Of a stretch of DNA of 21,248 nt, positions 16,941 to 21,248 are shown piece by piece. Each line of letters starts with the position of its first letter. The first letter of the stretch is position 1. The stretch lies in IMG/VR virus record IMGVR_UViG_3300032263_000006, positions 1-21,248 of that record, one strand, 5' to 3'. Made by a program: the position numbers and the translations under genes. This stretch comes from a virus. The notes below the pieces were generated by a model, which ran no database searches, was not told where the DNA came from, and was given only the letters and a program-made list of their open reading frames with translations.

Positions 16941-17639
16941 ATGGGTGATGTGACCCCTATCCGACGGGGCAGAATGACGTTGGACGAAAGAGTCTCGACG
17001 CTTCCCATCGTGGAGGACGTCGATGAAATGCTGCGCGAGGGTATGACGGCGGCCGACGTGGCGAAGCATATCCAGGAGACGTTTGAGCTGTTGCAAGACG
17101 TGTCGGGCGAGACACTGCAAAAGGCGCTCCAGCGGCGGCGCAAGGCGCTCCCCCCTCCCCCACCGTCGCCGGAAGATTGGCCGGCCGTCTACAGCCCGGA
17201 AGAGGATAGCAGCGAGGCGCGGACGCCAGGCAAGCTGGCGAGGGCTCAGTACCAGCGGGCGGTCATGGGTATCGACCTCTTGCTGGAGACGGAGGGCTTG
17301 TACCTGGCCCAGCGGGACCGCATAGACAGGATGATGCGAGCCGAGTCGCGGTCAGGGACTCACTACGAAGAGATGCCCCGAGAGATGGGGGCGGCCCTGG
17401 ACATGCTCAAGACTCATGCGAAGCTGCAGGAGCAGTTCGGACCGGCGACGGCTCGGTTGAAAATGAATCTCGAAATTCAAGGTGGCGCAACGACAGGGCT
17501 CGGCCAGAAGGTATCATCGACAATGCAGAACCCTGGAAGCCGGCACAAAGTATTGAGTTTCTTCAAAAAACTGTCTCAGGTCGCTGACCTACCGCCCGCA
17601 ATTATTGACGGGGAGGCTGAGCCTGTCGGTGGTGTCTGA
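16941..17639 (+). CDS. terS: Probable terminase small subunit
   Basis: A 232-residue protein directly before the large terminase. Its stop overlaps the large-subunit ATG in TGATG. The N-terminal part (residues about 24-72, VDEMLREGMTAADVAKHIQETFELLQDVSGETLQKALQRRRK) has a helix-turn-helix pattern of the kind used by small terminases to recognise viral DNA. Helical segments at about 110-180 would form the oligomerisation region, and a basic Gly-rich tail follows. The call rests mainly on position, size and the HTH; no signature residue is visible. It could otherwise be a regulator. It lies just behind a promoter with no ribosome site, so leaderless expression is possible. Confidence 0.65.
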   Translation: MGDVTPIRRGRMTLDERVSTLPIVEDVDEMLREGMTAADVAKHIQETFELLQDVSGETLQKALQRRRKALPPPPPSPEDWPAVYSPEEDSSEARTPGKLARAQYQRAVMGIDLLLETEGLYLAQRDRIDRMMRAESRSGTHYEEMPREMGAALDMLKTHAKLQEQFGPATARLKMNLEIQGGATTGLGQKVSSTMQNPGSRHKVLSFFKKLSQVADLPPAIIDGEAEPVGGV

Positions 17640-19702
17640 TGGCCATCGAGTTCGTCAATGGCCGGCCTCGGTCTGTTCGCACAGAGGACGAGCTGGCTCA
17701 GGAGCTGGAGGACGCTCTTGAGGCGATGTCTCCCGAGGAGCAGGAAGCGGTCTTTCACTACCTGCAAAGAATGGAGCAGGGCGAGAGAGACGTGCTCGAT
17801 TCGTTCGTGCGAGCGGACTATTCGGAAGAGCCGGTCGACCCGCTGACATTCCTTCAGGACGAATACTATCTGGGCGAGGTGGGCAACAATATGTGGCCCA
17901 AGCTGCAACAGGACTTCGTCGAGTTGTTTCAAGGAGGGTATTCCGAGGCAATCCTAAGTGGCTCAATTGGCTGGGGAAAATCGTTTTTTGCCACTTGTGG
18001 TCTGGCTTACGTTTTGTACCAGATGTCCTGCCTGGTCAATCCCCAGCAGGCCTATGGGCTGTCACCAGGGACCAGCCTGGCCATTGCGGTCATGAGCGCG
18101 ACGAGGGAGGCGGCCCGGCGCGTGCCCCTCGCTGAGCTGGGTAACAAGCTCCAGCTCTCCCCCTATTTCAAGGAGCGGTGCCCGTTCAAAATCGCCACGA
18201 CGATGTATGAGATTCGCTTCCCCACGAAAAAGATGATGGTGATAGCGGGCTCGACCAGTAGCGCGGCCATCGGTACGAACGTGTTCGCTGGGTTCGTGGA
18301 CGAGATGGCATTCATGGGGGCCAAGCGGCAGGCTGACACGATGGGCCGGATGGTGTCGGTCGACAAGTCGGAGGTTCTGACCAAGGCCATCGTCAGACGA
18401 ATGAAGAGCCGGTTCATGAAGGCGGGCAAGCTGCCTGGGCTGATGTTCCTGGTCAGCTCGAAGGAGCGGCCGGTGGCGTACATCGAGCAGAAGATAGAGG
18501 AAGCCCGGGAGACAAATGACCCCTCTGTCTTTATCAGGGAATACAGCACCTGGGACGTCCGGCCCAAGGAGGATTTCACGGGGAAGACCTTCCAGGTGGC
18601 GGTGGGTAACGAGACCGTCCGGAGCAAGCTCGACCCCACCCCGGAAGACATCGCCTGGTACGCTGAGACCCAGCTTCGTATCATCGACGTTCCCGAAGAG
18701 TACCGGCCGGACTTTGAGAGCGACTTAGAGGGGGGGCTCCGTGACATCGCTGGTATTGCAACCGAGTCGGTCAGCCTGTTCATTCACCGGCGCGAGAAAA
18801 TAATCGAATCCACTGACACGCGGCTCAAGAGCCCCCTTGACGTTGAGGAGTGGATGAGCGGCGACCCGCTGGAGTTTTGGTGGGAGCGGGTAGCGGTTCC
18901 TTTTGAGCGTCCAATCCCGGGTGGCTTCACAGAAAAGGCCTGGCGTCCTCTCAGGCACCCTGGGGCTCCTCGGTACGTTCACATTGACGTGTCATTGGTT
19001 GGCGACTGTGCGGGGCTGTGCATTGCTCACACGGCGGGGCACGTCGAGGTAGTCCGGCGGGACTTCCATGGCGAGACCTACTCCGAGGTGGCCCCGGTCA
19101 TTGAGACGGACTTGCTTCTCAGAATTCACCCGCCGCCCGGTGACGAGATATTCTTGGGGGACCTCAGAGGTATCGTCTACGAATTTCAAAGCCATGGTTT
19201 CGTTGTGTCTTATGCGAGTTTAGATGGCTGGCAGTCGGCTGATACCAGGCAGCAGTTCCGGCACCGTGGTATCGAGTCGGACGTGCTTTCGGTCGATAAG
19301 ACGGTGGTCCCTTACGAGTCGATGAAGACGGCGCTGTACGAGGGCCGGCTCAGATTGCAGCCCCATGAAGCTGTGCAGAAGGAGCTGCGGGAGCTACAGC
19401 GGATACAAAAGACAAAGGGCATCATTCCGAAGTTCATGGTGGACCACCCCCCTCGTGGCAAGAAAGACGTTTCGGACGCCTTGGCCGGCGTGGTTCACAG
19501 TCTGATGGTCCGTCAGCCCGGTATGCCGATTGTCCCGATGATGAGCGAGCGCAATGCAATGGGCGAGCAACGACAGGACGATTCCTGGGTAACGGGCGGT
19601 AAGGTAATGGTCCCACCTTCGGCTAGCGTCAGGGGGGCGTCACGCGGTATGGTGGGCCAAAAGGTATCGCAAAAACAACCGATGCCGTTCGTGAGGGGTT
19701 AG
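17639..19702 (+). CDS. terL: Terminase large subunit
   Basis: A 687-residue packaging motor. The ATPase part has Walker A SGSIGWGKS (residues 107-115), Walker B VFAGFVDE (215-222) with the catalytic Glu, and a coupling segment FLVSSKER (near 272). The RNase H-like nuclease part has Asp450 in HIDVS, Asp529 in SLDGWQS, and Asp610 and Asp613 in KKDVSDALAG, which fit the metal-binding acidic residues of terminase nucleases. It would pump DNA into the prohead through the portal and cut it. The length is on the high side for the family. The ATG overlaps the previous stop. No intein is seen in this gene. Confidence 0.9.
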   Translation: MAIEFVNGRPRSVRTEDELAQELEDALEAMSPEEQEAVFHYLQRMEQGERDVLDSFVRADYSEEPVDPLTFLQDEYYLGEVGNNMWPKLQQDFVELFQGGYSEAILSGSIGWGKSFFATCGLAYVLYQMSCLVNPQQAYGLSPGTSLAIAVMSATREAARRVPLAELGNKLQLSPYFKERCPFKIATTMYEIRFPTKKMMVIAGSTSSAAIGTNVFAGFVDEMAFMGAKRQADTMGRMVSVDKSEVLTKAIVRRMKSRFMKAGKLPGLMFLVSSKERPVAYIEQKIEEARETNDPSVFIREYSTWDVRPKEDFTGKTFQVAVGNETVRSKLDPTPEDIAWYAETQLRIIDVPEEYRPDFESDLEGGLRDIAGIATESVSLFIHRREKIIESTDTRLKSPLDVEEWMSGDPLEFWWERVAVPFERPIPGGFTEKAWRPLRHPGAPRYVHIDVSLVGDCAGLCIAHTAGHVEVVRRDFHGETYSEVAPVIETDLLLRIHPPPGDEIFLGDLRGIVYEFQSHGFVVSYASLDGWQSADTRQQFRHRGIESDVLSVDKTVVPYESMKTALYEGRLRLQPHEAVQKELRELQRIQKTKGIIPKFMVDHPPRGKKDVSDALAGVVHSLMVRQPGMPIVPMMSERNAMGEQRQDDSWVTGGKVMVPPSASVRGASRGMVGQKVSQKQPMPFVRG

Positions 19703-19703
19703 C

Positions 19704-21248
19704 GTGGCTTCACTCTGGGAAGGCTTCACAACCAGTGTCAGCTCGGCACTGAGGTCGTATTTTTCGCGGACCCCTCAGCGTCAAGCAGCCGAGCTTCAGC
19801 GCGGGGGTATCCCGGCGGTCTCCCTGGCGGGGATGCCGTACAACCTGGTCACTCAGTTTGGCTACGACGCACTGGCCAACTATCTGCGAATCGACCAGGA
19901 CTTGCAGCAGCGGTACACGGACGTGGAAGAGATGGACGAGTATCCCGAGATTTCGGTGGGGCTCGACATCTACGCGGACGACGCGACCAGTCCGGACCTG
20001 GACCGGGAGCAGTCTATCTGGGCGGTCAGCCAGGACAAGAAAGTCGCTGACGAGCTGAACCACATGCTCCACAAACAGCTCCTGGTGGAGGATGACTCCT
20101 GGGGCGTGGTCCGGACCCTGTGCAAGTACGGGTCGGTGTTTGGCGAGGCACTGGTGACGGACCAGGGGCTGGTGGGCATCAACTACCTTCCCCCGCCGAC
20201 GGTTCGGCGCGTGGAGGGACCTCGGGGCCAGCTTCTCGGTTTCATCCAAGACATCAGGGGGGAGTTCAATATCAGCCTGGAGGACTTCTACACTCTGGCG
20301 GCGCAGCAGCAGATGTCCAGGGAGGGCAACGGGGCAGATATTCCGTCGGCGATGGGGAGGCCGCCGGGCGAGCTGACCGTCTTCGAGGACTGGGAGCTGA
20401 TTCACTGGCGGCTGCGTGGGAAGCACCTGCGGTCGGTCTACGGCAATGGGGTGGTCGACCCGGCCCGATGGATATGGAAGCGGCTGGCGCTATTGGAAGA
20501 CGCTTTGCTTATCTACAAGCTGGAGCGAGCCCCGGCCCGATACGCTTTCTACATCGACGTAGGCGAGCTGGACGCCGAGCGCGGTTTGGCCTTCGTCAAT
20601 CGGGTCAAGAACAGCTTTACCCGCCAGAAGTTCGTGAACCCCAACACGGGCAAGCTGGACATGCGGTTCAACCCCTTGCCAGTTGCTGCCTCGACTCCGG
20701 TCCCTCAGTTGGACGGACGGAGCATCACCATCGAGCAGATGGCGAGGGAGTATGACAAGGGCGCGAAGCATTGGGTCTACTCTGTTGACCGGCAGACGGG
20801 TCATGTTGTCCCCGGGGAGGTCCTGTGGGTCGGCAAGACGAGGGAGAAGGCCAAGACGGTCCGGGTGACGTTCGACGATGGTAACTGGGCTGACATGGCG
20901 CCTGACCATCCTGTGATGCGTCGTGACTGTACCTATGCCAATGCGGAGGACCTGAAGCCTGGCGACCGCGTGATGCCTCTTTATCGTCGCACCTCAAGCA
21001 AGGCCAAGGGCGACTCCATGGAGGGGTATGAGCTGGTCTATGACCCAGAGGACCAGGTATCGAGGTACACCCATCGGGTCGTGACGGGTGTGCTGGGGCG
21101 TCATGCGCCGGGGATGGTCGTTCATCATCAGGATTTCGACAAGAGGAACAACGACCCATCGAATTTGTTGGACATGGCGTTAGAGGAGCACCTCCGATTA
21201 CATCTCGATGCAGGGCATTCAGGTGGACGTGCGGTTGCGGAGAAACGG
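19704..21248 (+). CDS. Portal protein interrupted by an intein, 3'-truncated
   Basis: The frame stays open to the right edge (515 codons). Residues 1-325 are a portal protein of the T4 gp20 type: YPEISVGLDIYADDATSPD (about 81-99), a CKYGSVFGEALVTDQG segment, LERAPARYAFYIDVGEL and the end DMRFNPL (319-325). The remaining portal is missing because an intein begins near residues 326-330. The GTG start follows the terminase stop codon by one base and has GAGGGG before it. The portal is the DNA channel at the capsid vertex. The C-extein lies beyond the window. Confidence 0.85.
   Translation, partial: MASLWEGFTTSVSSALRSYFSRTPQRQAAELQRGGIPAVSLAGMPYNLVTQFGYDALANYLRIDQDLQQRYTDVEEMDEYPEISVGLDIYADDATSPDLDREQSIWAVSQDKKVADELNHMLHKQLLVEDDSWGVVRTLCKYGSVFGEALVTDQGLVGINYLPPPTVRRVEGPRGQLLGFIQDIRGEFNISLEDFYTLAAQQQMSREGNGADIPSAMGRPPGELTVFEDWELIHWRLRGKHLRSVYGNGVVDPARWIWKRLALLEDALLIYKLERAPARYAFYIDVGELDAERGLAFVNRVKNSFTRQKFVNPNTGKLDMRFNPLPVAASTPVPQLDGRSITIEQMAREYDKGAKHWVYSVDRQTGHVVPGEVLWVGKTREKAKTVRVTFDDGNWADMAPDHPVMRRDCTYANAEDLKPGDRVMPLYRRTSSKAKGDSMEGYELVYDPEDQVSRYTHRVVTGVLGRHAPGMVVHHQDFDKRNNDPSNLLDMALEEHLRLHLDAGHSGGRAVAEKR
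20679..21248 (+). other. Intein with HNH homing endonuclease (within portal gene), partial
   Basis: The Hint part starts at about residue 326-330 of the portal frame with ASTPVPQLDGRSIT, followed by HWVYSVDRQTGHVVPGEVLWVGKTR, the block-B-like MAPDHPVMRRD (His402) and DLKPGDRVMPLYRR. An HNH module follows: VHHQDFDKRNNDPSNLLDM and EEHLRLHLD (His474/475). The first residue is not an evident Cys or Ser, and the usual Thr of the T-x-x-H motif is replaced by Ala. The C-terminal splice block (His-Asn) is beyond the edge, so splicing cannot be judged. Confidence 0.8.

Follow-up and report, generated by a model that had tools for sequence, protein, structure and literature searches.

The portal gene at the end of the analysed DNA, a window of 21,248 bases that makes up an entire linear IMG/VR record, is interrupted by an intein, one of a large and overlooked family of viral inteins that start with proline. 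Its residues, and those of its relatives, argue with good confidence for an active HNH-type homing intein in the portal of a T4-like phage, one that would splice by a class-3-type route without the WCT signature. We found no description of a Pro1/Cys F:4 portal family in the literature searched, which took in only a minority of the subscription journals.

The last gene of the window is an open frame on the forward strand (19704–21248) that encodes a T4-type portal protein, as judged by matches to Portal_T4 (PF07230; 7.3e-28) and to the portal family phrog_213 (6.5e-22). Upstream of it on the same strand lies the gene for the terminase large subunit (17639–19702; phrog_2 terminase, 5.7e-6), in which the intein site REY↓STWDV (near 18545–18560) is empty; this site is interrupted by a class 1 intein in contigs L002 and L012. 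The N-extein of the portal, residues 1–325 (19704–20678, forward strand), was delimited from the same two profile matches and from intein-free homologues that are 87% identical to it. It ends in RFNPL. Directly afterwards, at 20679, the match to portal homologues breaks and gives way to Hint blocks A and B and to an HNH module. A sequence-only reading of this DNA had proposed an HNH intein inside the portal gene and had remarked that its frame has no stop in the window. Both points are borne out: the first by Portal_T4, the Hint blocks, HNH_3 and a continuation in another contig, and the second by the gene running off the end of the record.

Since the window is the whole of its linear record, we sought the rest of the intein in other records. 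Scanning viral contigs at the protein level brought up L001, which agrees with the window at 100% of 2854 shared bases and contains the remaining intein down to its final Asn, then Ser+1 and the continuing portal, all in the same frame (RFNPL↓P1...YCMNV...GVFVKN↓SMDEDFF). With this continuation to N↓S, the first 190 of the 399 intein residues lie at 20679–21248 (forward strand), where the record ends inside the intein, and residues 191–399 at positions 2855–3481 of L001. The lack of a resumed portal frame downstream had been named in advance as the finding that would speak against an intein. Instead, the frame resumes in L001 and is taken to a stop codon by L071, which overlaps L001 by 844 of 844 bases.

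Alignment of the exteins with intein-free portals, a check that had also been proposed, fixed the boundary. The empty site reads RFNPL-A-MDEDFF in L002–L007 and RHNPL-S-MDEDFF in L013; the intein is therefore 399 aa long, with Pro first and Lys-Asn last before Ser+1. The exteins sum to about 591 residues (325 + 266), compared with 598 in the intein-free protein of L004. The left boundary at 20679 is exact, as first placed. The codon there is CCA (20679–20681, forward strand), and the Pro that it encodes falls on the block A Cys1 column of same-site inteins. Because two independent lines, the extein alignment and the block A register, agree on this assignment, Pro is residue 1. Thus, among the four junction candidates originally listed (Pro, Val, Ala and Ala), the first stands and starts at Val2, Ala3 or Ala4 are ruled out. 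Two expectations from the same source do not hold in the completed sequence: the C-terminal dipeptide is Lys-Asn instead of His-Asn, and the insertion site, thought to mark the end of the portal domain, is internal, since 266 residues of C-extein follow.

The insertion, then, is in frame, carries Hint blocks A, B, F and G, has an intein-free homologue, and ends in N399 followed by S+1 in L001, where an intein has Asn (or Gln) followed by Cys, Ser or Thr. Block A (PVAASTPVPQLDG; 20679–20717, forward strand) and block B (APDH; 20898–20909, forward strand) were placed by alignment with related inteins. Set against aligned inteins of classes 1 and 3, the window intein has Pro at residue 1, Ala at B:7, His77 at B:10 and Val79, not Trp, at B:12. 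The absence of Cys or Ser from the start of block A and of Thr from B:7 had both been spotted correctly from the window. Blocks F and G were invisible to that reading because both lie past the end of the record; in L001 they show Cys369 at F:4, His376 at F:13, Val397 at G:5, Lys398 at G:6, Asn399 at G:7 and Ser at +1. The HNH motif of the putative homing endonuclease (HHQDFDKRNNDPSNLLDMALEEHLRLH; 21123–21203, forward strand) matches PHROG HNH families at 1e-7. Against HNH_3, for which the cut-off is 24.8 bits, the window protein scores 25.3 bits and the longer protein of L001 24.1 bits. For the splicing domain, the Pfam score was 20.0 for the half intein and 32.3 for the whole, both below the cut-off of 35.8.

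These residues do not fit class 1, in which residue 1 is Cys, Ser or Thr; nor do they fit class 2, which comprises KlbA orthologues with Ala1, Asp F:4 and Cys+1, as the window intein has Pro1, Cys F:4 and Ser+1 and sits in a portal. An operational definition of class 3 (no Cys1, and Cys at C2:4, equivalent to F:4) has been used for 1701 inteins (PMC7891396). Judged by P1 and C369, the window intein is class 3 by this definition. It is not so by the WCT definition, having Val79 in place of Trp at B:12 and Val397 in place of Thr at G:5. With no nucleophile at residue 1 and Cys at F:4, it also gives support to the earlier suggestion of a non-standard splicing class. With the WCT inteins of class 3 (MP-Bethlehem DnaB, Msm DnaBi1, Mch DnaB1 and Dra Snf2) it shares the lack of Cys, Ser or Thr at residue 1, Cys F:4, His B:10, a terminal Asn, Ser, Thr or Cys at +1 and the Hint fold, but it lacks their Trp B:12, Thr G:5 and penultimate His. 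Block F also differs (DxYCMxV...HNF in the Pro1 type, (V)xCI.V in class 3 WCT inteins), as does the endonuclease, which is HNH rather than the LAGLIDADG type found in about 82% of class 3 inteins (PMC7891396). The AceL NrdHF split intein (class 3, MCT) likewise has neither Trp B:12 nor a penultimate His (PMC7891396). However, it keeps Thr G:5 and has no His F:13, whereas the window intein is without both Trp and Thr and keeps His F:13 (H376).

Scans and profile tallies yielded 93 distinct Pro1 inteins which, as far as their extein flanks show, are confined to two phage-portal sites, an NPL/M-type site before (S/C/T)xxED and an RNL/M-type site before CKYGD. Cys F:4 was present in 93 of 93, and no Pro1 member lacked it. 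Some of the family scans had used block F motifs as search patterns. We therefore counted again, taking only members matched by patterns that lie elsewhere than in blocks A and F; since Cys F:4 was found in 32 of 32, the association is not produced by the search, and an artefact of this kind is ruled out. We aligned 62 Pro1 inteins, the most distant of which are 31% identical to each other; P1, P9, W50, H77, D366, C369, M370, V372, H376, F378 and N399 are among the positions that do not vary. All 62 aligned relatives thus have Pro1, His B:10, Cys F:4 and Asn G:7, and no Cys, Ser or Thr other than Cys369 is invariant. The +1 residue is Cys in 40, Ser in 19 and Thr in 3. Trp B:12 occurs in 8 of the 62 and Thr G:5 in 1, the two together in none; no penultimate His was found in this set, and Ser is common at G:6 in the family. 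Deviations from WCT are reported to be rare (4.6 and 6.1%; Hoffmann et al., PMC7891396), yet there are at least 93 Pro1 members, and Trp and Thr never occur together in the 62 checked, which marks the family as distinct.

At least 15 of the 93 are shorter than 260 aa and keep the splicing residues; from their length, the endonuclease has probably been mostly or wholly lost. The natural mini-inteins start at 157 aa. Scans of genome contigs found no relatives. In the isolate and phage collection the matches listed were weak (<60% identity), and L164 and L165, read as DNA, were not Pro1. A proline at residue 1 is not in itself unprecedented: the TerL intein of Mycobacterium phage Lopton (L077), a WCT class 3 intein, also begins with Pro.

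The window intein has no block A nucleophile, no Thr B:7 and no penultimate His, and its Pfam intein score is under the cut-off. Inactive class 3-like inteins are also known (PMC3196547). These features would suit a degenerate intein that lost Cys1 and no longer splices, or one that only cleaves, an alternative that the sequence-only reading had entertained. Several results make it improbable. The same residues are common to all 93 distinct Pro1 members, and the relatives that have shed the endonuclease keep those needed for splicing. Synonymous differences between the window intein and L015 have reached saturation (pS 0.86), yet the N-terminal splicing domain has a pN/pS of 0.13, equal to that of the exteins (0.13 and 0.12), revealing purifying selection. 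The ratio is 0.37 for the endonuclease region; that of the short C-terminal splicing part, at 0.40, is no lower, which weighs on the other side. Furthermore, every aligned member has Cys, Ser or Thr at +1, whereas Ala is frequent there in intein-free portals close to the window. Finally, the portal gene, which should be essential, keeps its reading frame open, and mini-inteins have been retained. A dead element in the portal gene is hard to reconcile with this conservation, the pN/pS values, the mini-inteins and the +1 nucleophile, and on the family-wide conservation and pN/pS we reject degeneracy.

A second possibility is the class 2 route, in which the +1 residue attacks directly. It would agree with the lack of a nucleophile at residue 1, a feature shared with the KlbA inteins, with Ser, Cys or Thr at +1, and with the frequent Ser at G:6, which is also seen in KlbA inteins. 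However, class 2 inteins have Ala1 and Cys+1 and require Asp F:4 (PMC4031507), whereas F:4 is Cys throughout the Pro1 family and +1 is often Ser or Thr. The route is disfavoured by Cys F:4 in particular, and we regard it as very improbable.

Predicted structures are in keeping with a Hint fold. The 171-aa mini-intein of L049, which exceeds the Pfam intein cut-off (43.0 versus 35.8 bits), gave an AlphaFold2 model of a Hint domain with a pLDDT of 89.5; the window intein, completed through L001, likewise gave a Hint domain (pLDDT 87.9; Foldseek). Among solved structures the L049 model is nearest to those of class 1 (NrdJ-1, Z 21.1; RecA, Z 20.5), compared with Z scores of 16.4 to 15.7 against the class 3 structures 6zgq, 6riy, 6bs8 and 6rix. 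Complete in its relatives, the window intein is probably a functional HNH-type homing intein.

The portal site NPL↓ is also occupied by Cys1 inteins, in L009, L012, L018 and others. These share with the window intein the insertion site, the HNH lineage and Ser+1, at no more than 48% identity over the whole intein. They differ in starting with Cys, in carrying Thr at B:7 as well as at F:4, where the window intein has Cys, and in lacking the additional stretch that the latter has between blocks F and G. A tree built from the endonuclease region alone unites Pro1 group A and the same-site Cys1/Thr F:4 inteins in one supported clade (98/98). Given this clade and the shared site, a single homing lineage at a single site holds two active-site types. 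Across the Cys1 relatives, F:4 is Thr, Asp, Cys, Asn or Ala, and a further set of inteins at the same or nearby portal sites has both Cys1 and Cys F:4. Two inteins of this last kind occupy the CKYGD portal site, L109:4001–5257 and L111:2026–3288 (intein starts one codon upstream). In the portal of L056–L058, a same-site Cys1 intein has Ala at F:4 and falls among the Cys1/Cys F:4 inteins.

A tree rooted on class 1 Asp F:4 inteins placed L109 and L111 within the Pro1 clade (96/86) and grouped the holders of Cys F:4 at 85/90, with one Ala F:4 row among them. Placing all Pro1 inteins in one clade without L109 and L111 cost 36 log units, although the AU test did not firmly reject it (p-AU 0.098). 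Nested as they are, L109 and L111 may be natural intermediates or revertants. The tree suggests an order of events, dependent on the root, in which Cys F:4 was gained with Cys1 still present and Cys1 was then replaced by Pro1.

Class 3 inteins have been held to be monophyletic with a WCT signature (PMC3196547, PMC4031507), and a structural study by Beyer et al. (PMC7664689) argues that class 3 cannot evolve directly from class 1. The Pro1 family might accordingly be a divergent part of the classical WCT clade from which Trp and Thr were lost. A grouping of WCT with Pro1 inteins was unrejected in topology tests (p-AU 0.245) and appeared at 74/88 in a smaller tree, and the Lopton intein shows that Pro1 can occur alongside WCT. 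However, a grouping of WCT with class 1 Asp F:4 inteins was equally unrejected (p-AU 0.353), and the WCT inteins from phages form a clade of their own (100/100), separate from the Pro1 family (96/90). Moreover, the Pro1 family shares its site, its HNH lineage (98/98) and a long segment between blocks A and B with the Cys1 portal inteins, whereas WCT Hint domains are shorter and do not have this segment. We consider WCT descent less likely than not, while noting that the AU tests do not support an independent origin of the Pro1 lineage as a firm claim. The class 3 references were inteins found with a consensus probe, which served as bait only; Corynebacterium phage P1201 was discarded as a reference since it carries Cys1 inteins.

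We tentatively put forward, at somewhat less than an even chance, that splicing initiated by Cys F:4 arose twice, the second time within the HNH portal inteins by way of Cys1/Cys F:4 and then an obligatory Pro1. Class 3 chemistry would then have more than one origin and could be reached from class 1, and Pro1 would actively weaken or twist the scissile Xaa-Pro bond.

In the class-3-type route that we favour for the window intein, the Hint fold would set the Leu(-1)-Pro1 bond beside His77 (B:10) and Cys369 (F:4). Cys369 would attack this bond directly to form a branched thioester, and the N-extein would pass to Ser+1. Cyclisation of Asn399 would free the intein, with an acyl shift joining RFNPL to SMDEDFF. 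The HNH domain would presumably drive homing into intein-free portal alleles. Cys F:4 is the established class 3 nucleophile (PMC3196547, PMC4031507). There is a precedent for doing without Trp B:12 and without His at both F:13 and G:6: the natural MCT variant AceL NrdHF lacks all three and is a good class 3 splicer, and a T-to-A change at its G:5 slows it about tenfold, making Thr G:5 helpful but not essential (PMC7891396). Counting against the class-3-type route are the absence of Trp B:12 and Thr G:5 (Val at both), Ala in place of Thr B:7 and the penultimate Lys. When WCT and C1A were grafted onto a class 1 intein, no splicing resulted (PMC7664689). Since class 1 inteins also carry Cys F:4, this residue alone is no proof of the route.

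A strict Pro1 poses a chemical puzzle, in that splicing would have to begin by attack on an Xaa-Pro bond. Pro is invariant in the family, in contrast to the sampled WCT inteins, in which residue 1 is A, D, P, G, S or C. On these grounds we conjecture that Pro1 itself helps, perhaps through a more easily twisted Xaa-Pro amide.

The family bears on the evolution of the rarer splicing chemistry that uses an internal Cys. One site and one endonuclease lineage hold both the Cys1/Thr F:4 and the Pro1/Cys F:4 types, with Cys1/Cys F:4 intermediates nearby, and a transition from class 1 to class 3 thereby becomes testable with natural sequences. The mini-inteins, whose two catalytic nucleophiles both lie towards the C-terminus, are possible practical tools.

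Lastly, some portals are interrupted repeatedly. The portal genes of L047 (segment from nt 2), L042 and L043 each carry at least three inteins of different types, and the portal fragment of L047 contains parts of five, including one Pro1/Cys F:4 and two Cys1/Cys F:4 inteins.
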